A stretch of 31,150 nucleotides of DNA from a virus, in the IMG/VR virus record IMGVR_UViG_3300006919_000249, positions 1 through 31,150 of that record; one strand, written 5' to 3'. Positions within the stretch are counted from its first letter, which is position 1. The number at the start of each line of letters is the position of its first letter. Positions 2,818-31,150 of this stretch are shown here, piece after piece. A program made the position numbers and the translations under genes. The notes below the pieces were generated by a model. The model had not been told where the DNA came from, did not search any database, and saw nothing but the letters and a program-made list of their open reading frames with translations.

Positions 2818-3654
2818 ATGCCTGGATACCGATATCCTATTGAACAGGATGAGAAATATAAAGCCCGAGTACAATTTGCAGCTAAAGGTTCGAGCGGAGG
2901 ACTTTTAGGTGTCGCTAATCTGTATTTCCCAGAAGCAGTAAGTTTTTCGGATGGATTGGTATATGATAACGCTACCTTGGGTTATGCGGGTGAGATGGTT
3001 AGAAGAGGTGTAGCGGACACGATGCAGGGACTTCAAACTGGCGGACTGAATGCTGCTGAGCGAAGTCTTTCGGATGTGGTAAGTAAGGCAACCAGCACGG
3101 TGAAAGAAAACTTCACATCGGCGAGAGATACACTTGGCAGCACCGCAGATGTAAAAAACGTTCTACAAAATGGTTTAATTCCAGCTACAAGTATTCTAGT
3201 GCAAGGATTTACAGAAACTGTATCTCCAGGATTATCAGGCGCTGTTGCATCCGGAACAGAAGTTACAGCAAACCCACACAAACGTTCTGTTTTTAGAGAT
3301 GTTGCTCTAAGAACATTTACATTTTCATTTTTAATGAGTCCACAAAGCGAAGCTGAGGGTCAGGCGATTGAGGATATTGTATACTTTTTTAGAGAAAATG
3401 CTTATCCGGATAAGATTGCAGGAGAATTGGGATATAAGTTCCCAACACAGTTTTATATTGAATTTTTCTATGGCGGCGGAAAAATGTCTCAAGCACCCAG
3501 AATCTTACCAAGTTATTTAACAAGTGTTAATACTACATTAAACCCACGGTCTTCTTCTTTCTTCAAAGACGGTAAAGCGAATGAGGTTCAACTTACAATG
3601 TCTTTCCAAGAAGAAAGAGCACTAAACAAATCAGATATTAAGATTGGTTTCTAA
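2818..3654 (+). CDS. 48: Baseplate tail-tube cap protein (gp48/gp54-like)
   Basis: The protein has 278 residues; T4 gp48 has about 364 and gp54 about 320. The diagnostic part is the C-terminal half: NPHKRSVFRDVALRTFTFSF, then SPQSEAEGQAIEDIVYFFRE and AYPDK, then FPTQFYIEFFYG. It ends with a tube-fold strand (NEVQLTMSFQEERALNKSDI). This is the gp48/gp54 pattern of proteins that cap the baseplate hub and nucleate the tail tube. The N-terminal half is Ala/Gly/Ser/Thr rich and probably helical. It is first in the rightward late unit, with SD-like AGGA and ATG close behind the promoter box. Its stop overlaps the gp53 start (TAATG). gp48 is more likely than gp54 from the gp19-like candidate initiator on the other strand, but the two families are related and the choice is uncertain. 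Confidence 0.7.
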   Translation: MPGYRYPIEQDEKYKARVQFAAKGSSGGLLGVANLYFPEAVSFSDGLVYDNATLGYAGEMVRRGVADTMQGLQTGGLNAAERSLSDVVSKATSTVKENFTSARDTLGSTADVKNVLQNGLIPATSILVQGFTETVSPGLSGAVASGTEVTANPHKRSVFRDVALRTFTFSFLMSPQSEAEGQAIEDIVYFFRENAYPDKIAGELGYKFPTQFYIEFFYGGGKMSQAPRILPSYLTSVNTTLNPRSSSFFKDGKANEVQLTMSFQEERALNKSDIKIGF

Positions 3655-5474
3655 TGTCATACTTTAAAAATTACCCCAATATCAATTACAAATTCGGTAA
3701 TGAAGCAACATCTACTTCAGTTCAAGACCTTGGAGCGTATGTTGATTTATTCGATAGAGTGAAAGACGATATTTCTTATTATGAGGAATACAATCTAAGA
3801 GACGGTGATCGTCCTGATCAGGTTTCTAATTATCTCTATGGTTCTCCTGATTACCACTGGACATTTTACCTGCTGAATGATGATCTGAAGAGAAGAGGTT
3901 GGCCTTTAACTCGTACAAGAATCAGTGATAAAGCAAAAGAAGAATATCCAAACATTGCTTTTACGACTAGAGCAAATATTTCAGAGCAATTTCTAATAGG
4001 TAGTAATATTACAGGACAAACTTCTGGTGTTACTGGAAAGATTCTAAGAAGACGTCCAGATATGGGTCAGATTATTGTTGAAAAAACTACAACAAATCAA
4101 ACCTTTACAGGCACACCAGACACAAACAGTGATTTGGATATTGAACTAACAAGCAATAATACTTTCGTAAATAGTAGTGATTGGGTCGTCACAAATACAA
4201 CTACAAATACTGTTGTGACAGATCATACAATTGTTATTTCTACAGATAAGACAGAAGCAACTATTGGCAATCTTACATTCGGATTTAATTATTCAATCGT
4301 AACTAAAATCTTGACGAATGCAAATTTTGTTAAAGGTGAAGCAATTATTACTACAGAAAATGAAGTCGAAAAGAATATTATTGTTGATTCAGTTGTAGAT
4401 GAATATAATGCAAAACATCACTATGAAGATGCGTCTGGTAACTATGTTGACATTGCACCGAATGCTCCATTTATTCAGAGAGTTTCTTATGAAATTACAT
4501 GGGATGGTTCAGGCATAGAGGCGACAGACTTTACTATTGATGACATTAAAATCTCTAATCTTACCTCGATCTTTACTGACTTTAGTTTGGATGAGGTCAC
4601 AACTCAAACAATCTTAGGGAATGTTCTTCCGGGTGGATCTGCTCTTGTGATTGCTGGATTGCTGCAGGCAGCATTTAACAATGATGATGATTATACAGTA
4701 GATGATTGGCAGAGTGGATTTTTGGTCGGCACTCTAGGACTCTCTACAGAGTTTCAGAATGTTGTGTCGCTTCAATTAGGCGCTATTGTAAATGGTATTG
4801 CAGGAGCAGGTGGCACTTCTCCGACGAGTATCGTCTATCACACATTTACACTGGTGGACAATCAATTAAACATTTTTGATTCTACTACCACTGCGCCACA
4901 ATATATTGCATTTGAATTTAGGTCTGATGTAGATGTAGACTTTCTTGGCGGCGACTATACTCTCATGCCTTTCAACACAGACGGTAATGATATTTTAGCG
5001 AATGATGTTACAGATGAAGATGAAAGAAACTTCATGGTCTACAAGAATATTGGTAACACAGGAACGCCAGTAACAGGCACACCATTCTTGACGAGCAAAA
5101 CGACAGATGGCGTTTCAACACTCAACTCTGCTTTCACCTTTGTTCAGAATGCCTTTGAAACATATATCGCTACGAACTATGATGATTTGATCCCTGCTAC
5201 GATTGTCCCTGTTACATTCCTGGAAAGATATGAAAAAGAAAACGAAGAAGTTCGGACAATCAAAGTTCTAAGACCAGAGATTATCGTGCAGTTTGATACT
5301 GCATTTAAGAGAATTCTTTCTGAATCTACAGCAGAGCAGATAGATGATGTTATTGGTACTATTTCTGGGGATACCTCGTTTACTTCTGTGATAACTACGG
5401 CAACCCTTCAAAATCAAGCAACTGGAGCATCTTCTTCTAGCAGCAGTAGTAGTGGCGGAGGAAGTAGTTATTAA
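3654..5474 (+). CDS. 53: Baseplate wedge protein gp53, enlarged by insertions
   Basis: The protein has 606 residues, about three times T4 gp53 (196). The gp53 core is recognisable in pieces. The N-terminus has MSYFKNYPNINYKF and then PDQVSNYLYGSPDYHWTFYL, matching the 'r.e.la..iYGnp.lyW' segment. A middle piece reads AKHHYEDASGNYVDI (about 252-266). The C-terminal piece is FLERYEKENEEVRTIKVLRP (about 523-542). Between the middle and C-terminal pieces lie about 240 residues of Thr/Asn/Asp-rich beta-type sequence, and a shorter insert precedes the middle piece. The protein ends in poly-Ser/Gly (GASSSSSSSSGGGSSY). gp53 joins wedges to the hub in T4. The inserts may decorate the baseplate. Its start and stop overlap neighbours by one base. 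Confidence 0.8.
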   Translation: MSYFKNYPNINYKFGNEATSTSVQDLGAYVDLFDRVKDDISYYEEYNLRDGDRPDQVSNYLYGSPDYHWTFYLLNDDLKRRGWPLTRTRISDKAKEEYPNIAFTTRANISEQFLIGSNITGQTSGVTGKILRRRPDMGQIIVEKTTTNQTFTGTPDTNSDLDIELTSNNTFVNSSDWVVTNTTTNTVVTDHTIVISTDKTEATIGNLTFGFNYSIVTKILTNANFVKGEAIITTENEVEKNIIVDSVVDEYNAKHHYEDASGNYVDIAPNAPFIQRVSYEITWDGSGIEATDFTIDDIKISNLTSIFTDFSLDEVTTQTILGNVLPGGSALVIAGLLQAAFNNDDDYTVDDWQSGFLVGTLGLSTEFQNVVSLQLGAIVNGIAGAGGTSPTSIVYHTFTLVDNQLNIFDSTTTAPQYIAFEFRSDVDVDFLGGDYTLMPFNTDGNDILANDVTDEDERNFMVYKNIGNTGTPVTGTPFLTSKTTDGVSTLNSAFTFVQNAFETYIATNYDDLIPATIVPVTFLERYEKENEEVRTIKVLRPEIIVQFDTAFKRILSESTAEQIDDVIGTISGDTSFTSVITTATLQNQATGASSSSSSSSGGGSSY

Positions 5475-6802
5475 TGAGCACTACTGGTAAACATCATCCT
5501 TTATATGTTGCACAGACAAAAATTATTGTTTTTTCTGATAGATATCCGCCAAGAGAAATCACTAAGATTGTCGCTGAAGTCAACATGTATGAAAATATTG
5601 GACTTCCTTATGTAACAGCTCGATTAATTGTTATTGACTCTGCTAACGCATCTAATGCTGTACAACTTCAGGGGCAAGAGAAAATCCAGATTATTGCCCT
5701 AGATTCGGAAGCGCAACCCATTTTAAATAAAGAATTTATTTGTATGGGCGTCGAGTTTGGTCAGAAAGTCGGAGATGATAAATCTGCGTATGTTGTAAAA
5801 CTTGTTGAAGAGCATGTGATGTTGAGCAACCTTACCAGATTCAGTAAGGTATACCAAGGTAAACCTGAATCTATCTGTAATGCAGTTTGTTCTGAGCAAC
5901 TGGGGGTATCAGTTTCCTCTGATGGTTCAGCGCAATCTGATATGAGAGTTGTATTCCCATTCACAGTTTCCCCTTTAGAGGCAGCAAACTGGATGGCAGC
6001 ACGTTGCACAAATGCATCTGGTATTCCATTTTATTTCTACTCTACAATGGACGATGATAGTTTACAACTCAAAGATATTTCTGTTCTGTTAGGACAAGGT
6101 CCATTTAATGATAAAGATTTTGTCTATGGTACGAATTCTAGTGAACTAGCAGGTGGACCGGAAGATCAAGATATTCTGGCAAGAAAGATTACAAACTATA
6201 CGATTAATAATAATGAAGACACTTTGCTAGCAATGGCAAGAAATGTGTATGGTGGATATTATAATTTTGTTGATACCTATGAATATGGCGGACAAGAGAT
6301 TATTCACGATTTAACAAAACCATTAGGTTCATTACCTGCAGTGAATGGATCAGCATTCCCATATAATTATGATCCTGCATTTAGTACAGGGAGACCTTAT
6401 CATAAAGGGCAGAATACTTATTCGACACAGATTGTGACTAGAAAATTGTTTGATGACACCAATTCCTTTTTGGAAGAACAAGAATTGAGAAATCATTTAT
6501 ATAAAGCAGAGTCTAGAGCAATCTACTCATTTATGGATCAGCAACCGATTAACATTACTGTTCCCGGCATTTCTTTAGGGTTTGACAAGCTCGGTAAACA
6601 GATGAAAATCTATATACAAAAAGATATTCCAGCAGAGGAAGAATCTACTAGAGAAAGTGTTAAAGACAAAAAAAGGTCAGGCATATACCTTATACAAAAA
6701 GTCATGTATACGATCTTCCAGAACAGACTTACTGCGACTGTGACTGCAACTAAAACAAGCACCGATCCAAGTCTGGGTGGTGAACAATTGAATAAGAATT
6801 AA
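5474..6802 (+). CDS. 27: Baseplate hub protein (gp27-like)
   Basis: The protein has 442 residues; T4 gp27 has 391. The N-terminal domain pattern (EVNMYENIGLPYVTARLIVID, then GQEKIQIIALD and KEFICMGVEFG) resembles hub-ring proteins of the gp27/gpD type. A second part carries VFPFTVSPLEAANWMAARC and FYFYSTMDDDSL, as in hub proteins where the chain returns to form the second tube-like domain. The following gene is the gp5 OB-fold protein, and in T4 gp27 forms the trimeric torus that holds the gp5 spike. Start ATG overlaps the gp53 stop (TAATG). The assignment combines fold-type pattern and position. I do not see close identity to T4 gp27 itself, which diverges strongly across phages. Confidence 0.7.
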   Translation: MSTTGKHHPLYVAQTKIIVFSDRYPPREITKIVAEVNMYENIGLPYVTARLIVIDSANASNAVQLQGQEKIQIIALDSEAQPILNKEFICMGVEFGQKVGDDKSAYVVKLVEEHVMLSNLTRFSKVYQGKPESICNAVCSEQLGVSVSSDGSAQSDMRVVFPFTVSPLEAANWMAARCTNASGIPFYFYSTMDDDSLQLKDISVLLGQGPFNDKDFVYGTNSSELAGGPEDQDILARKITNYTINNNEDTLLAMARNVYGGYYNFVDTYEYGGQEIIHDLTKPLGSLPAVNGSAFPYNYDPAFSTGRPYHKGQNTYSTQIVTRKLFDDTNSFLEEQELRNHLYKAESRAIYSFMDQQPINITVPGISLGFDKLGKQMKIYIQKDIPAEEESTRESVKDKKRSGIYLIQKVMYTIFQNRLTATVTATKTSTDPSLGGEQLNKN

Positions 6803-6806
6803 AGAT

Positions 6807-7352
6807 ATGGAACTATACAAGGTATTACAGAAAGAGTTTTATGGAGACGATACCCGTTGGTTCTTGGGTATTGTTGAAGATAATAAAAACGACCCTGAAA
6901 AACTCGGTAGAGTTAGAGTTCGGGTGTATGGTCTGCACAATCCTTATCTTTCTGATGTTCCTACAGAATTATTGCCATGGGCTTCTGTTCTAGTCCCTGC
7001 TACATTCGGCGGTGTCTCTGGCGTAGGCAGAAGTCCTACAGGTATCGAACAGGGATCATGGGTTTTTGGTGTTTTCTTAGACGGTAAGCATTCTCAGAAT
7101 CCATTAGTTCTTGGGACTATTGGTAAGATCGAACAGAGTCCGGGAGATGATATTCAACCTGAAGCAAAAATTGTACCAACCTCTATTGCCACATCAATTG
7201 GTGGTGCTGGTGGTTCTGTAAATGCAGTTAATGTTGGCGGAACGATTATTGCAAACTCTTCTCAAGGGCAGATTATTTTTGAGGCGCTAAAGGGCGAAGG
7301 GTTTACAGTAGTGTCTGCAGCAGCTGCCGCAGCAGCAAGTTACACACCATAA
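6807..7352 (+). CDS. 5: Free-standing gp5 OB-fold domain (spike collar)
   Basis: The protein has 181 residues. Residues 14 to about 110 follow the N-terminal OB-fold of T4 gp5: RWFLGIVEDNKNDPEKLGRV, VRVYGLHNP, PTELLPWASVLVPAT, GSWVFGVFLDG, NPLVLGTIG. In T4 gp5 this domain is followed by a lysozyme domain and then a beta-helical needle in one 575-residue chain. Here the chain stops after a Gly/Val-rich stretch and a run of seven Ala (SAAAAAAASYTP). The needle is found in a separate gene at 10113. The domain should sit on the gp27-like hub encoded just before it. No lysozyme motif is present in this protein. No strong SD is visible in the four-base gap upstream. Confidence 0.85.
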   Translation: MELYKVLQKEFYGDDTRWFLGIVEDNKNDPEKLGRVRVRVYGLHNPYLSDVPTELLPWASVLVPATFGGVSGVGRSPTGIEQGSWVFGVFLDGKHSQNPLVLGTIGKIEQSPGDDIQPEAKIVPTSIATSIGGAGGSVNAVNVGGTIIANSSQGQIIFEALKGEGFTVVSAAAAAAASYTP

Positions 7353-7361
7353 GGAGTTATC

Positions 7362-7760
7362 ATGGCAAAGTATAAACCAGAATTACAACTTAATCCAAGG
7401 ACAGGAGATACTGTCTATGCTTTAGGTGCTGGTCCTAAACCTGATCCTACAAAATTAGCAGGTGCACAGAATGAAGATGATGCAACCTTTGGTGTTTTTA
7501 AGTTTCGTGGTGTAATGAAGCAGAAATATTTTGATTATTGTTTTTCTGGCAACTTAGATATGAATGATGTTACAAATCAAACAAACTTTTTAATCAAACA
7601 ACTTAGAGAAGATAATTCTTTACGGGGGAGTGAATTGAAAGAGGCAAAGACAGTAGAACAAGCAGCTTTGATTATTCATCAATATATTTTAAAAGATACT
7701 TCGGGTCTACAGAATACTATAGATACTGCGTATGACCTTTTAGATAGGAATAGTGCATAA
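7362..7760 (+). CDS. Unknown small baseplate-cluster protein
   Basis: The protein has 132 residues and I do not recognise its family. The N-terminal third is Pro/Gly/Asp rich (LNPRTGDTVYALGAGPKPDP). The middle contains FGVFKFRGVMKQKYFDYCF. The C-terminal half is helical and charged (QLREDNSLRGSELKEAKTVE and following). No signal peptide or membrane segment. A good SD (AAGGAG) precedes the ATG. It lies between the OB-fold protein and the CHAP protein, overlapping the latter's start by one base (TAATG). It may adapt the enzymes to the split spike, but that is position-based speculation. Confidence 0.6.
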   Translation: MAKYKPELQLNPRTGDTVYALGAGPKPDPTKLAGAQNEDDATFGVFKFRGVMKQKYFDYCFSGNLDMNDVTNQTNFLIKQLREDNSLRGSELKEAKTVEQAALIIHQYILKDTSGLQNTIDTAYDLLDRNSA

Positions 7761-9403
7761 TGTCCACCAATCAGTATAATACAGATGTTGCACCAGATAC
7801 AACTAAAAGTAAACTTGACGTAAGAGAAAATGTTCTCGAGGGTGTTTCCCTTGCGGGCAATAAGGCAGCCATAGATGATTATTTTTCTAAACTCAGAAAT
7901 CAGCCTACAGTTTTAGGCGATGCTTTGTATGGAGCAACTTTTGAGTCAAAAAGTGAAATAACTTCTAGACTTTTAGATGGTCAAATTAACGGTCCTCTTA
8001 ACACTTTCGATGGAGGAACAAATATTCCTCCATTGACAGGTTCTGGCGTAAGTGAAGGGGTATATCAATTTGATGGAGGAACAAATGCTCCTCCAGAATC
8101 TGGCAGCGGATCAGATCCGGATCCAGAAAATGATGTTCTACCTAATGAGCCAGGAGGTGCATTAGGATCTTCAATGGAAGATCAAAAACCATCAGCTGGT
8201 GGAGGGTTCAAACCTCTAAATTGTACAAAGTTTATTGGTAATGAAAAAGTAGAGCATGCAGGGCAACCCACGCCACCATCTTATCCAGATGAACTTGGTG
8301 GGGCGGCAGGAGCTGCTAGTTCATATCAACCTTATGGCGATGAGTTTGATGCGCCGGGTGGAACAGATTATAGCGGGTTGGGGTTGGTTTTGTCATCCGA
8401 CGGAACCCCTGTACGGACTGCTTCAGGTGGATTTGTTAGAACTAGAGCATTATCCGGTCCAGCGGGTGGTCCTATACCTTCTGATAAACCCCTTTCTCCA
8501 ACAGGAATGCCACCCGGAGCTGCAAGAGCAGAAGCATTGACTTTCCAAGACCCTGCCACTGTTGCAAAAAGTAGCAGACTTACTCAATGTGATAAAACGA
8601 CAATAGTTGGTCCTACTGGGCAATATGCAGCTCAATTAAAGGCGATGATGTGCGATGAGGAAATGATTTACTTTTCGGAACAATATATTATATACTCAAA
8701 TACTGCTGGCGGTGGAACACAGGGGTATGATGCTGCTAAGGCATTAGGTGCAGGATTGAATGGTCTTGCAGAAGGGCAATTTGATGCTGCTACTAATCTA
8801 GAGGTTCAAGAATCTATTCTGAATGCGATTGGTATTGATGATCCTTCCTCTATTGAAGGGTTTGAATTTGGAGATTCTTTACAGGCAACATTTGATAATT
8901 TAAGAGCATCTGGTGTGAATGTCGATGGTATATTAGCATCAACTAATCCTCTTCAGGTAGCAAATGCATTCTTAGGTGCTAGTGAAAATAATTCACAGCA
9001 GGCAGGACTGTTAGCAGAGTTCTTTAGAGAATCTGTCGGATGGAATGTTAGCGGAGCAGATTTGACTCAACCTCAAAATGCATGGTGTGCTGCATTCGCA
9101 AACTCAGTTCTCAGTGCTACAGGATTAGAAACAAATACGCCGAATGTTCTTGGTGCTGCAGCATTTGCTAATTGGGGATCAGCTGTCTACACTCCTGGAT
9201 CTGGCGTCGGCAGTATTTCAAATATTCAGCCGGGTGATGTTGCTGTCTTTAAATGGCCTACTGGTGGTAATCATGTCGGATTTGTGCAATCTGTACAAGG
9301 TGATACAATCAACGTACTGGGAGGCAATCAAAGCGATTCTGTGAAAGTTAGTAATTACAAACTAAAAGATTTGACACATGTTAGAAGGGCGAGCAAAGAA
9401 TAA
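7760..9403 (+). CDS. Virion-associated protein with C-terminal CHAP-type peptidoglycan peptidase
   Basis: The protein has 547 residues. The last 140 or so match the phage CHAP/TIGR02594-like pattern: NAWCAAFANSVL with candidate catalytic Cys443, NIQPGDVAVFKWP, GNHVGFVQSV with His505, and VLGGNQSDSVKVS with Asn523. Such domains cut peptidoglycan cross-links or the amide bond. The first 300 residues are a Gly/Pro/Ser-rich, low-complexity region with a duplicated FDGGTN-x-PP motif (about 83-112) and an acidic linker (SGSDPDPE). The middle (about 300-420) is helical. Long structural N-terminus plus terminal enzyme suggests a virion enzyme rather than a soluble endolysin. It overlaps both neighbours by one base, in a run with an amidase and a glucosaminidase-tipped spike. 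Confidence 0.75.
   Translation: MSTNQYNTDVAPDTTKSKLDVRENVLEGVSLAGNKAAIDDYFSKLRNQPTVLGDALYGATFESKSEITSRLLDGQINGPLNTFDGGTNIPPLTGSGVSEGVYQFDGGTNAPPESGSGSDPDPENDVLPNEPGGALGSSMEDQKPSAGGGFKPLNCTKFIGNEKVEHAGQPTPPSYPDELGGAAGAASSYQPYGDEFDAPGGTDYSGLGLVLSSDGTPVRTASGGFVRTRALSGPAGGPIPSDKPLSPTGMPPGAARAEALTFQDPATVAKSSRLTQCDKTTIVGPTGQYAAQLKAMMCDEEMIYFSEQYIIYSNTAGGGTQGYDAAKALGAGLNGLAEGQFDAATNLEVQESILNAIGIDDPSSIEGFEFGDSLQATFDNLRASGVNVDGILASTNPLQVANAFLGASENNSQQAGLLAEFFRESVGWNVSGADLTQPQNAWCAAFANSVLSATGLETNTPNVLGAAAFANWGSAVYTPGSGVGSISNIQPGDVAVFKWPTGGNHVGFVQSVQGDTINVLGGNQSDSVKVSNYKLKDLTHVRRASKE
8012..8094 (+). repeat. Duplicated hairpin-forming segment inside the CHAP gene
   Basis: GATGGAGGAACAAAT occurs at 8009 and again at 8072, each followed within three bases by CCTCC. 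Each copy can fold: GGAGGAA (8012-8018) with TTCCTCC (8025-8031), and GGAGGA (8075-8080) with TCCTCC (8089-8094). Both encode D-G-G-T-N-x-P-P. Each also contains a perfect anti-SD match (GGAGG), which could slow ribosomes in this linker. Confidence 0.7.
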
Positions 9404-10113
9404 TGGCAGTAGGCGGATATTTAAAAACAGTAAAAAGAATTGTAAAGTTTTCAGATTCTTTCGATCCAAAAATTAAGACATTACAGTCTGACTTTTTAGG
9501 TGATGATGTAAATCCTGTCTTTGATGTGGATAAAGTTGAAGTTGGAGATATTATCGAAACAGAAGAAGAGATGGAAGCGTATCTCCGTTCTTCGAGAAGA
9601 GAGTATACAGAGACTATTGTATATCATACTTCTAGCGATTATACTCAGAACTTCAAAAGAGATGAGTTGGTCGATTGGTTCTCTACAGAATATGGATTAG
9701 ATGATATTAATTTTCATTTCCTGATTCTTAGAGATGGGCGCATACAGATTAACAAGTTAATTAATTCTACACCTTCGCATACACCTGTACAAACTCATTT
9801 AGAGCATAGCATTAGTATTGCATTTGTAGGCGGAATTAAAAATGGTGTTCAAGACATTAAATCATGTTCTCCTAAGCAATGGCATACTTTTCATAAATTT
9901 TTGAAATGTTTTTATACTATCCTTCCGGGAGGACAAGTATTTGGTCATTCTGATATCAATACAAGAGCGACTGATCCGGGATTTGATGTTGTCAAATATG
10001 TAGAAAACTCTTTTGGTAAGCGTAATACTCTAACCAATTCTGAAGCCAGAAGACTAGGTTCTTTAGATGTCGGCAGATTAATTGATTATAGCAGAAGAAG
10101 AGGGTTCAGATAA
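9403..10113 (+). CDS. N-acetylmuramoyl-L-alanine amidase (Amidase_2/PGRP type)
   Basis: The protein has 236 residues. The T7-lysozyme-like amidase fold is shown by ETIVYHTSSD with candidate zinc ligand His75, then NFHFLILRDGRIQ (the 'yHflI.rDG.i' strand), HSISIAFVGG, and GHSDINTRATDPGFDV with His182 and Asp191, where Asp takes the place of the more usual Cys ligand. These enzymes hydrolyse the bond between muramic acid and L-alanine. The first 60 residues are a charged extension. There is no signal peptide. Neither a holin nor a spanin is visible nearby, and the gene is fused by TAATG overlaps into the spike cluster, so a virion-borne role during entry is favoured over a lysis role. A dual role cannot be excluded. 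Confidence 0.8.
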   Translation: MAVGGYLKTVKRIVKFSDSFDPKIKTLQSDFLGDDVNPVFDVDKVEVGDIIETEEEMEAYLRSSRREYTETIVYHTSSDYTQNFKRDELVDWFSTEYGLDDINFHFLILRDGRIQINKLINSTPSHTPVQTHLEHSISIAFVGGIKNGVQDIKSCSPKQWHTFHKFLKCFYTILPGGQVFGHSDINTRATDPGFDVVKYVENSFGKRNTLTNSEARRLGSLDVGRLIDYSRRRGFR

Positions 10114-11768
10114 TGTCTACAGGATTTAAAGATCCAGACGGAGCATTTCCAAGACCTGAATATATTGGTCAGGCGACTACGAACAAGGCAGCACGTGATG
10201 AGTGGACACCTAAAATTGTCTTGCCTGATGGGGTTGCTGGCACAGATTTGGTCAAAATGGATTGGCAACCTGAATATCCATACAATAAAGTAGAAGAAAC
10301 TTCCTCTGGTCACAGAGTCGAGCATGATGATACTTTAGGTAATGAGCGTCTGTCTTATGTTCATAAAGACGGCAGTGGGATTGAAATGTATCCGAATGCT
10401 GAAGAACAAACTACGGTATTGGTCAACTCAGTTGGGCGAATGGTTCAGTTAGTCGGTGATGACTTTGTGATGATTGTGAATGGTAACGGTGATGTTACTT
10501 ACAAAGGGAATCTCAATCTGAATGTAGAGGGCGACTTTAACGTTTCCTGTAACAACTATACTATTACTACAAAAGGTAAGAATGTAGAAGAAACTAAACA
10601 GCAAAAGATTGAAAACTTTGTTGGAGATAGAGTTGTTACCACTCAAGGCAATAAATCAGAGATTGTCCTTGGTAACTATACTGTAGAGAGTATGGGTAAT
10701 ACTTACCTTGTTTCTAAAGAAAACACTCGTATTACAGCACAAGATAATATTGACATCTTTGCTGGTGATGATATGAGACTTACAGCAGATGGGAGGATGA
10801 CCAGTTCTGCTTTAGTAAACAGAGTTGTTGGTATCTGTACTTCTGTTGTAGGTAATACAGGAACCTTTGGTGGTAAAAATATAGTTATGTATTCTAAGTC
10901 GCACCATACAGATACAGTAAATGCTACAACCATTAGAAGTTCTTTTGTTGGCGATCTTAAAGGAGATGTGGAAGGTAATTTACAAGGTAATGCAGACACA
11001 GCAACTGAAGCAGGAAAAGCTGGCACCGCTGCTGTAATAGGAGCTGGTGGTAGTGGTGGCACACCAGCAGATCCTAATGTTACTGAGGTTGCTGCAACTA
11101 CAACTTATGAACCAAATTTTGAAAATTTGAGCGAAGGACTGGCAAGAACTGTACAATTAGCAATCCGTCAAATTGATGTTGATGATACTGGCATTAGTAA
11201 TAGTGTTCATGGTGGTGGTGAAACAGGTGGTTCCTCTGGTCAATCAGGAAATATTCCTTCTGGGTATGAAGATGAATTTGATGATCAATTTAAAGCAGCT
11301 CCATATTTCAAGTCTAATCAAGAATTCTATGACGCAGTTTATGATCAAGCATATCAAGAGTATGTCAATAAAGGATATAATACAGAGAAATCTGCTGCAT
11401 TAGCAGACCTTGCTGCAGCTCAAGCGTCCTTAGAAAGTGGATATGGCACTAAATCTATGGGTGGAACTAACTACTTTGGTATAAAAAGTCCGAACGGTAC
11501 AGTACACAGCACTAAAGAAGTGATCAATGGTGAAGAAGTTACAATTCAAGCAGGATTTGCTAATCATGGTAGTCTTAGCGGGTCTGTATCGGCTTATGTG
11601 GATTTAATTAATCGTTCTCCATATGGTGGTGTATATGATGCAGTTAAAGCGTCTACATCACCTTTAGAAGCGATACAAGCGATCGATGCTTCTCCATATG
11701 CAACAGACCCTAAATATGGATCTAAATTGAGATCTATTTACAGTACATATGGGAGGGCGAATAAATGA
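10113..11768 (+). CDS. gp5-type needle (spike) fused to a C-terminal glucosaminidase
   Basis: The protein has 551 residues. Residues 50-95 (YPYNKVEETSSGHRVEHDDT, then ERLSYVHKDGSGIEMYP) match the linker that starts the gp5/VgrG needle. Residues about 100-245 are repeated short beta strands with GD and GN turns, as in the trimeric beta-helix of the cell-puncturing spike. A Gly-rich hinge follows (GAGGSGG and GGGETGGSSGQSG). Residues about 425-551 match a FlgJ-type glucosaminidase: AQASLESGYG with candidate catalytic Glu441, and NYFGIKSP. This domain cuts the glycan strand. T4 gp5 carries its lysozyme before the needle, while here the enzyme is after it. The stop overlaps the next start by four bases (ATGA). 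Confidence 0.8.
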   Translation: MSTGFKDPDGAFPRPEYIGQATTNKAARDEWTPKIVLPDGVAGTDLVKMDWQPEYPYNKVEETSSGHRVEHDDTLGNERLSYVHKDGSGIEMYPNAEEQTTVLVNSVGRMVQLVGDDFVMIVNGNGDVTYKGNLNLNVEGDFNVSCNNYTITTKGKNVEETKQQKIENFVGDRVVTTQGNKSEIVLGNYTVESMGNTYLVSKENTRITAQDNIDIFAGDDMRLTADGRMTSSALVNRVVGICTSVVGNTGTFGGKNIVMYSKSHHTDTVNATTIRSSFVGDLKGDVEGNLQGNADTATEAGKAGTAAVIGAGGSGGTPADPNVTEVAATTTYEPNFENLSEGLARTVQLAIRQIDVDDTGISNSVHGGGETGGSSGQSGNIPSGYEDEFDDQFKAAPYFKSNQEFYDAVYDQAYQEYVNKGYNTEKSAALADLAAAQASLESGYGTKSMGGTNYFGIKSPNGTVHSTKEVINGEEVTIQAGFANHGSLSGSVSAYVDLINRSPYGGVYDAVKASTSPLEAIQAIDASPYATDPKYGSKLRSIYSTYGRANK

Positions 11769-12649
11769 GGATCAATTTTAATACAGTCACGCCAAAGCAG
11801 ATTAGGGCATACATGAGAGATCCTAATAATAGAACTGACAATACTTTTGTTGGAATTGCCTTTGCAAAGAATCTTATTGGTGCTGATTTTTTCGTGCCTA
11901 TTGCTAAAAAACTGAGATCATATTTTGGTAAAAATGCTCATGTAAAATATTCTAACAGTTCTTTGATTAACTCTAAGAACGCTAGAAGGTATAAAGAAAA
12001 TCTTGGTATTTCAAAAATTTTACCAAGTCCAATCTATGATCCTATGAAAGCAGATCAAATACATGCTGGAACAAAACTTGGTAAAGGCATTCCTTTGTCC
12101 ATGTTTGTTTCTTCTCCTGGAACTAGAGCAACGATTAATCATCTATCTCTCGCCGCTAAAAGAGATGTTGCTAGGCAGTTTTATTGTCATGTTCCATTAA
12201 TTGAAGGTTTCAGAAATCATAGTAACTTCAAAAGAAATAGTTTGATTGTTACTGAAGGATTAGTAAAACCGGAGAGCGGCGAAAGTTTGGTCTCTGGACA
12301 GATTAGAGATTTGCAAACAAAAGCACGTGCTGTTGTCTATGAAGTTTTAGATAGTAAAGGTAGAAACGATCCCTATGCGACATTTCAATTAGCGAACTAT
12401 TGGAAAGATAATCATTTGTTTCAGGGTCTTATTTTGCACTTTGATACATTAAATCCTTCTGTATATAATAATACAACAACTCATGCAGACGAAGTTTTAC
12501 AATCAGATAAAGAATACCATGCAGAAATTATTGTGATCATGCCCACAGTCAAAGTTGATTATCAAGCAAACTTTGCCAGAGAAGTTCGAACCGATATTAA
12601 CTTTAGAACTATGATTAAAGATGGACTTGGGTATTTTCAATATAAATAA
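11765..12649 (+). CDS. Unknown 294-residue baseplate-cluster protein
   Basis: I do not recognise this protein. It is basic in the first half (KKLRSYFGKNAHVKYSN) with no membrane helix. A central part (SSPGTRATINHLSLAAKRDV) is helical. The last third looks like a beta domain (GLILHFDTLNPSVYNNTTT, EYHAEIIVIMPTVKVDYQ, VRTDINFRTMIKDG), similar in flavour to tail-tube or baseplate beta sandwiches. It starts on ATGA with the needle stop, so it is co-translated with the spike, and it is the last gene before the promoter of the wedge unit. A spike-tip, spike chaperone or hub-decoration role is possible. Its stop codon overlaps the late promoter box at 12641-12648. Confidence 0.6.
   Translation: MRINFNTVTPKQIRAYMRDPNNRTDNTFVGIAFAKNLIGADFFVPIAKKLRSYFGKNAHVKYSNSSLINSKNARRYKENLGISKILPSPIYDPMKADQIHAGTKLGKGIPLSMFVSSPGTRATINHLSLAAKRDVARQFYCHVPLIEGFRNHSNFKRNSLIVTEGLVKPESGESLVSGQIRDLQTKARAVVYEVLDSKGRNDPYATFQLANYWKDNHLFQGLILHFDTLNPSVYNNTTTHADEVLQSDKEYHAEIIVIMPTVKVDYQANFAREVRTDINFRTMIKDGLGYFQYK
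12641..12648 (+). promoter_or_regulatory. Late promoter for the wedge unit (gp25-gp6 and next gene)
   Basis: An exact TATAAATA overlaps the last codons and stop of the 294-residue gene. Predicted start near 12655, about 25 bases before the gp25 ATG at 12680. Confidence 0.7.
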
Positions 12650-30275: not shown

Positions 30276-31150
30276 AACAGAATCAAGACTCCTTAGCGGT
30301 CGTATTAAGACTAAAACTGGCAATAATCTAGACTCTAGAAGAAGTGCGTTCCTGAGTCTGGATAATGCTGAACCGAACTTTGGTAATCCGGATTCCGACC
30401 GTTATATTCTTGCTTCTCTTGCCGACGGTACACGTTTATTCTTAAAGCTCAATAAAGGGTTTCTTGTCAGTGCAGACAGTGTAAGCGCAGACGAGTCTAC
30501 CTTTGAGATTGATCCTTCTGGATTGGCAAATGCTGCAGGCACTACCCTTGCAGAAGTACTGGATAATCTTGACTCTGCTATTACTGAAGCATTCACTAGT
30601 GGTTCCTTTACTGATGATAATTTTAACGGTTCTGGTACTGTTTCCGACCCATTAACATTAGACTCTGACCTTCGCATCTTTGGCATTACAGGTGACTCTG
30701 CAACATTTACAAATATTACCTCATCTGGAACAGTCGACTTTAGTGGCGCTACAGTTACAGATGGTGGTACAGTAACAACCGTAGATATTGACGGCGGAAC
30801 GATTGACGGAGCCACTATCGCTACTTCTGATATCACAGTAGGTTCTGGTAAAACTTTAGATGTATCTGCTGGAACATTAACTCTTGCCAATGACCAAATC
30901 TCTGGTGATAAGGTAGAAGGCGGAACAATTGACACTGTTACTGTCAATAACCTTACTTCTGGAAATGTTAATGTTGACGGTGGATTTATTGACGGAACTG
31001 CCATCGGACACATTACACCAGATTCAGGTACGTTTACTAATCTTGCTAGAACTTCTCCAGCTGGAGTAACAGCTGCAACTTATGGTTCTGTTACAGAGAT
31101 TCCCGTCTTTACAGTTGATGCATCTGGATTTATTGATAGCATCGGTGAAG
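30268..31150 (+). CDS. Second repeat-rich tail fibre protein, 5' part (cut by window edge)
   Basis: The frame is open from the ATG at 30268 to the end of the window, at least 294 residues. The start overlaps the previous stop by eight bases. The N-terminus (SRLLSGRIKTKTGNNLDSRR, SAFLSLDNAEPNFGNPDSDR) is an anchor unlike the two other fibre anchors here. From about residue 150 on, the sequence is made of short beta repeats (TVTTVDIDGGTIDGATIATS; VEGGTIDTVTVNNLTSGNVN; VDGGFIDGTAIGHITPDSGT), a style often seen in long marine myovirus fibres. The last visible residues (TYGSVTEIPVFTVDASGFID) are another frequent fibre unit. Its tip domain lies outside the window. Confidence 0.7.
   Translation, partial: MAKTESRLLSGRIKTKTGNNLDSRRSAFLSLDNAEPNFGNPDSDRYILASLADGTRLFLKLNKGFLVSADSVSADESTFEIDPSGLANAAGTTLAEVLDNLDSAITEAFTSGSFTDDNFNGSGTVSDPLTLDSDLRIFGITGDSATFTNITSSGTVDFSGATVTDGGTVTTVDIDGGTIDGATIATSDITVGSGKTLDVSAGTLTLANDQISGDKVEGGTIDTVTVNNLTSGNVNVDGGFIDGTAIGHITPDSGTFTNLARTSPAGVTAATYGSVTEIPVFTVDASGFIDSIGE

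Follow-up and report, generated by a model that had tools for sequence, protein, structure and literature searches.

Spikes of described phages and the locus analysed here

In bacteriophage T4, the gp5 component of the cell-puncturing hub (gp27-gp5*-gp5C) carries an OB adaptor, an active mid-chain lysozyme and a needle on one polypeptide. Proteolysis cleaves this chain in the stretch linking lysozyme to needle, between Ser351 and Ala352 (PMC3004832). The gp5 proteins of the Ackermannviridae phages CBA120 and KpS110 bear a CHAP domain instead of the T4-type lysozyme: our domain scan placed it inside KpS110 gp5, and a CHAP is described for CBA120 gp5, the Vi1 ortholog of which is reported to have been detected by proteomics of virions (PMC3184105). 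Separate OB and needle genes occur in Methylophilales phage Melnitz-3 (L024; L numbers designate the sequences compared here), whose OB gene bears VanY and whose needle terminates in an M15-like part, and in OLIVR5/IC12 (L026, L027), where the OLIVR5 OB gene carries CHAP and the related IC12 has its needle gene apart from its OB gene. Outside phages, the "evolved" VgrG proteins of type VI secretion have variable domains at the needle C-terminus (PMC3004832). Here we describe a T4-type spike block in the IMG/VR virus fragment IMGVR_UViG_3300006919_000249, all 31,150 nucleotides of which were analysed and are referred to as the window. We think it probable, as predicted from its genes, that this block is a dismantled T4-type gp5 hub with exchangeable wall cutters for entry.

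The block resembles T4 gp5 in its OB adaptor, hub partner, needle and place in the baseplate cluster, but T4 uses one gene with an active lysozyme, whereas here there are separate genes, a split lysozyme that appears broken, and added modules. Unlike the Ackermannviridae, which hold OB and CHAP in one gp5 chain, it has an optional CHAP on a separate carrier; unlike Melnitz-3 and OLIVR5/IC12, in which no carrier or amidase gene was seen between OB and needle and the modules are placed elsewhere, it keeps both genes there. The commonest needle module among its relatives appears to share its fold and a Trp/Tyr/Glu triad with the endolysin of Hafnia phage Enc34 (PHA02564), which is membrane-anchored and not needle-borne. 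By these comparisons the block would best be classed with the T4 gp5 tail lysozyme, as a variant that may act like an "evolved" VgrG spike, with the difference that VgrG delivers effectors between cells and that the OB and needle genes here are of the gp5 type and belong to a phage tail. Searches for split gp5, T4-like hub hydrolases, gp5 with glucosaminidase, amidase and needle, and evolved T4-like spikes did not find the arrangement in the literature covered, mostly outside subscription journals.

gp5 is divided over separate genes and its lysozyme appears broken

In the window, gp5 is divided over five plus-strand genes. An OB-fold gene (6807..7352, 181 residues; Gp5_OB, 3.3e-14) supplies the counterpart of the T4 gp5 N-terminal domain and is followed by a 132-residue gene (7362..7760), a carrier with a C-terminal CHAP (7760..9403, 547 residues), an amidase gene (9403..10113, 236 residues) and a needle gene (10113..11768, 551 residues), so that three genes separate OB from needle. 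Searches with the needle, amidase, 132-residue and needle-module families brought up related contigs. OB and needle are on separate open reading frames (ORFs) at every locus covering both, and the order OB, 132-residue gene, carrier, amidase, needle and a conserved 294-residue gene (11765..12649, plus strand, its start overlapping the needle stop in ATGA) is kept wherever a related contig covers the block, which argues against a chance assembly. A preliminary description of this DNA, made from the sequence alone, had reported three chemically distinct peptidoglycan hydrolases in consecutive overlapping genes. The three ORFs indeed overlap by one base, stop and start sharing it in TAATG at both junctions, and the six catalytic or ligand residues named for them (C443, H505, H75, H182, D191 and E441) are all in place. 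That description did not mention the OB-fold gene, the lysozyme remnant at 7362-7760 or the missing catalytic Tyr of the amidase.

The 132-residue product matches the later part of Phage_lysozyme2 (PF18013, cut-off 28.2 bits; E 4.8e-5, profile positions 40-115 of 140), as do the products of divergent relatives, which alone score below the cut-off. The first part of the domain is supplied by the tail of the OB protein, and the split is visible only once that tail is included. In a stop-read-through scan, the match spanned the OB stop codon (window 7272-7685, profile 5-115), and Phage_lysozyme2 was detected in 25 of 30 records, that is, in 25 of the 27 from IMG/VR (window included) and none of the three described phages. 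One TAA is crossed in 12 of these 25 matches. Joining the OB tail to the next gene raised the score from 20.4 to 28.3 bits in L071, from 21.4 to 29.8 in L069 and from 24.0 to 26.6 in the window, and the joined L070 form scored 34.6 bits. The joined L045 form reached 22.4 bits (profile 42-115) and gained no N-terminal coverage, and a shuffled OB tail on L071, a single control, gave 19.3 bits. When nine joined sequences, the window included, were aligned to the phiAGATE tail lysin and to phi29 gp13, whose catalytic Glu we take to be E45, none had a Glu at the catalytic column. The window OB tail ends in AAASYTP; in L069-L071 a Glu lies about two residues beyond the column, close to where the OB tail stops. 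We read the OB tail and the 132-residue product as one predicted Phage_lysozyme2 domain that is broken in two and lacks its catalytic Glu.

The 132-residue family alone gave no useful alignment with phi29 gp13 (hidden Markov model search, hhalign) and no match in the PDB. Against phages, tblastn with the 132-residue protein returned only three Bacillus phage matches (E 0.4 to 1), and with the joined L070 form none.

The OB and 132-residue genes of the window share a frame and are divided by a TAA inside TAAGGAG, followed by ATG. We rejected TAA read-through as a general mechanism, as the two genes share a frame at 17 of 23 loci but not at the other 6, and GGAG precedes the ATG at many of these junctions; given this varying frame relation, the two genes are most simply translated separately. 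Since T4 gp5 is proteolysed between these two parts, the second gene break here, which separates lysozyme from needle, falls at the T4 cut place.

The carrier and the needle hold exchangeable modules

The carrier has a conserved part at about residues 241-342, followed by an optional C-terminal CHAP. In the window this domain scored 36.1 bits (Pfam cut-off 26, E 9.5e-9, residues 439-523) and has both C443 and H505. Among 26 complete carriers, window included and that of L069 excluded as its contig or locus ends, 10 hold CHAP, 2 an M15-type peptidase and 14 no recognisable enzyme. The M15 assignments rest on Peptidase_M15_3 in L071 (35.6 bits, above its cut-off) and on Peptidase_M15_4 and VanY in L070, both below theirs. 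A short motif of the type RTxSGxPVxT, which might be a cap or mark a recombination seam, occurs near the ends of module-less carriers and of some needles, and also within the window carrier; it was noted in the carrier tails of L014-L017, L019, L020, L034-L037, L045 and L046, in the L017 needle tail and at about residues 210-225 of the window carrier.

The needle protein matches phrog_430, "baseplate hub subunit and tail lysozyme", over about residues 50-294 (phrog_430 positions 329-550, E 3e-16) and is thus predicted to correspond to the C-terminal needle of T4 gp5. Its end carries a Glucosaminidase domain (PF01832; 69.1 bits, cut-off 30.2, E 7.4e-19, residues 426-546), in which E441 of AQASLESGYG aligns with FlgJ AQAALESGWG. 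This domain is shared with L002 only: 23 complete needle C-termini comprised 2 with glucosaminidase, 1 with an SLT-like module, 11 with a common Enc34-endolysin-like domain and 9 with none, the needles of L004, L018, L037, L069 and L071 being excluded where contig or locus ends. The common domain also occurs in three further fragments, L081-L083. In addition, it starts a 262-residue protein near the tail spike gene of a spring-water podovirus (L086:3995-4783), perhaps the endolysin of that phage.

A structural model of the common domain matched the Enc34 endolysin (7q47) with a Foldseek probability of 1.00, a template modelling score of 0.54 and an E of 0.036; structural comparison gave a Z score of 9.2 over 128 aligned residues (root-mean-square deviation 3.3), the next entry scoring 4.8. 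Only Enc34 stood out in this comparison list, in which absence excludes nothing. The viral fold library gave a best E of 2.3e-3, to uncharacterised phage proteins, with a putative tail-fiber/lysozyme protein at rank 4. Enc34 residues Trp79, Tyr95 and Glu131 (PMC8943055), numbered one higher in the sequence translated for this analysis, align with W97, Y106 and E142 of the L015 domain and are invariant in 11 of 11 rows. Muralytic activity has been shown for the Enc34 domain, and the authors of that work infer that it is a glucosaminidase with a relationship to GH73 and GH23 (PMC8943055). As the modules found are glucosaminidase, SLT-like or Enc34-type, enzyme-bearing needles look like glycan cutters.

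On a phylogeny built from the amidase, OB and hub proteins these states look scattered: CHAP falls in two separated clades, and the common needle domain turns up at three positions, with none in between. Several contigs, L019/L021 among them, are near-identical across samples, and contig counts are therefore not independent events.

The amidase is constant and altered at its predicted active site

Unlike these optional modules, the amidase was present in every contig covering its place and in 16 of 20 records, the four misses being the three described phages and one contig not reaching it. The window copy, which has a conserved N-terminal extension, scored 29.0 bits as Amidase_2 (cut-off 26; Pfam 1.5e-6), retains all three zinc ligands (H75, H182, D191) and has T7 lysozyme as its closest solved relative (1aro, 1.9e-12). 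At the position of T7 Tyr46 it has Phe104 in place of the catalytic Tyr. Across 26 copies (19 distinct), this position is Phe in 20, and 7 have Asn in place of the first zinc His; 25 carry one or other change, and only L045 keeps both His and Tyr. In contrast, His, Tyr and Lys are present in 8 of 8 control phage amidases, which we picked from 14 rows. AmpD-type enzymes have a Glu in place of the catalytic Tyr; the matching position, which we take to be residue 140 in window numbering, is Ala in all 26 copies. In the T7-like amidase Ts2631, His-to-Asn leaves 17% and Tyr-to-Phe 10% of the activity (PMC4573324). Because the changes fall at these activity-cutting places, the enzyme probably has little or no activity, and a peptidoglycan-binding or weakly cutting role is probable for this amidase-fold protein.

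In L005-L009 the Asn at the first zinc position is followed two residues on by a new His (CNTHTDF), perhaps a shifted ligand. The L070 amidase (L070:5673-6566, 298 residues) has a longer N-terminal extension than other relatives. A scan of genome contigs with the amidase family for a host yielded 106 pattern matches and no relative.

A dismantled hub with exchangeable wall cutters as the preferred explanation

From the arrangement of these genes we infer a virion location, activity, timing and order of action as follows. Within the cell-puncturing hub of a T4-type myovirus, gp5 would have been taken apart, leaving the OB adaptor and the beta-helical needle as separate genes. The ancestral lysozyme would persist as a relic over two genes, its work passed to exchangeable modules. 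The hub-associated carrier may accept a peptide cutter (CHAP here, M15 in other relatives), and the needle end a glycan cutter, which is a glucosaminidase in the window and an SLT-like or Enc34-type module in other relatives. On tail contraction, the needle would bring its glycosidase into the periplasm, and the carrier peptidase would enlarge the hole for the tail tube. In this group of uncultured T4-like phages the spike seems a modular wall-penetration tool because the lysozyme looks broken and is replaced by parts that differ between relatives. Our best reading of the window itself is two apparently intact, exchangeable hydrolases, a carrier peptide cutter and a needle glycan cutter, together with a degenerate amidase-fold protein.

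Several results weigh against this explanation. Eight contigs (L017, L019-L021, L034-L036, L046) have neither a carrier nor a needle module; with an inactive amidase their cassettes would contain no working cutter, so that either the amidase works or the enzyme lies elsewhere. The SLT-like module was found in a single contig (L003), at 0.0016 on the domain alone and below the cut-off, and a PDB search with it returned nothing meaningful. The model of the common needle domain has a mean predicted local distance difference test (pLDDT) score of 67, with most of the core at about 65-94, and hhalign of this module to Enc34 was weak (E 0.069). The read-through lysozyme match of the window stays below its cut-off, with 4 of 30 records above it, and the AlphaFold model of the 132-residue protein was poor (pLDDT 50) and not used.

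Where the carrier holds an enzyme it looks like a peptide-cutting type, and where the needle does, like a glycan cutter, with few module types behind the rule. A strict version, in which the needle is glycan-only and the carrier peptide-only, both turn over while the hub stays, and the amidase and split lysozyme are pseudo-enzymes with peptidoglycan-binding or structural roles, is tentative and, in our judgement, somewhat short of an even chance.

The preliminary description had instead proposed an entry toolkit carried in the baseplate, its three enzymes together cutting peptide cross-links, the peptide-glycan bond and the glycan strand. All three Pfam domains exceed their cut-offs, and the zinc ligands and the CHAP and glucosaminidase catalytic residues are present in the window. 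A baseplate setting is also supported by the location between the gp27-like hub and gp25/gp6, the needle corresponding to the gp5 C-terminal part, and the Ackermannviridae CHAP precedent. However, "three enzymes" is too strong given the altered amidase copies, and the complete trio occurs only in the window and L002, other contigs having other combinations or none. Loss of catalytic residues in most homologues, named there as a refutation, holds for the amidase only: CHAP and glucosaminidase keep theirs but are optional, while the amidase is constant yet altered. We consider a fixed toolkit of three active proteins unlikely.

Slightly less likely still is that the amidase, and perhaps CHAP, is a release endolysin among late structural genes, with only the needle enzyme acting at entry. 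phrog_822 places the amidase under lysis, its closest solved relative is a lysozyme of T7, and no holin or second lysis gene is named among the other genes of the 31-kilobase window fragment, in line with the absence of a nearby holin noted before. Nor did endolysin searches, of 20 or 30 records each with three described phages included, detect a second Amidase_2, CHAP, glucosaminidase, SLT, M15/VanY or T4-type lysozyme in the searched IMG/VR fragments of up to 68 kilobases. Against this, the active site is altered in all amidase copies except one and intact in every control, the gene is fixed inside the spike block with its N-terminal extension conserved, and described relatives encode a wall-cutting enzyme outside the spike, a T4-type lysozyme in C48C1 and a glucosaminidase in HTVC008M. 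That the OB and 132-residue genes form a working two-chain lysozyme is very improbable, for although both halves are conserved under a continuous profile (5-115) and L069-L071 retain a nearby Glu, none of the joined sequences has one at the aligned place.

Under the preferred explanation of a dismantled hub, a T4-type spike with separate, swappable peptide and glycan cutters and a split lysozyme would offer a series of states showing spike-enzyme loss and replacement, and a natural panel for asking, host by host, which bond of the wall is limiting for entry. A 2017 review attributes virion lysins with two lytic domains only to phages of Gram-positive bacteria, and two different virion lysins only to PRD1 and phi11 (PMC5380687). 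Pelagimyophage gp5 has been suggested to diverge to fit the host wall (PMC7029224), an idea that becomes testable per module.

Surrounding genes

Family annotation of the window genes showed that a T4-type baseplate cluster surrounds the spike block. Baseplate hub, tail tube, DNA end protector and head closure genes on the minus strand are followed by gp48, gp53, a gp27-like hub/tail protein (5474..6802, plus strand; phrog_350, E 2.1e-36), the gp5 OB gene, the rest of the spike block, gp25, gp6, gp8 and tail-fiber-like genes. The 294-residue protein encoded between needle and gp25 had no convincing family match in Pfam/PHROG-type profile searches; present wherever relatives cover its place, it is a candidate hub or tip component. 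At the right end of the window, a 203-residue minus-strand ORF (30402-31013) has no PHROG match. The gp53-like gene (3654-5474) encodes 606 residues, compared with the 200 positions of the Pfam wedge model, which it matches only at about residues 43-101; its complete relatives range from 525 to 751 residues.

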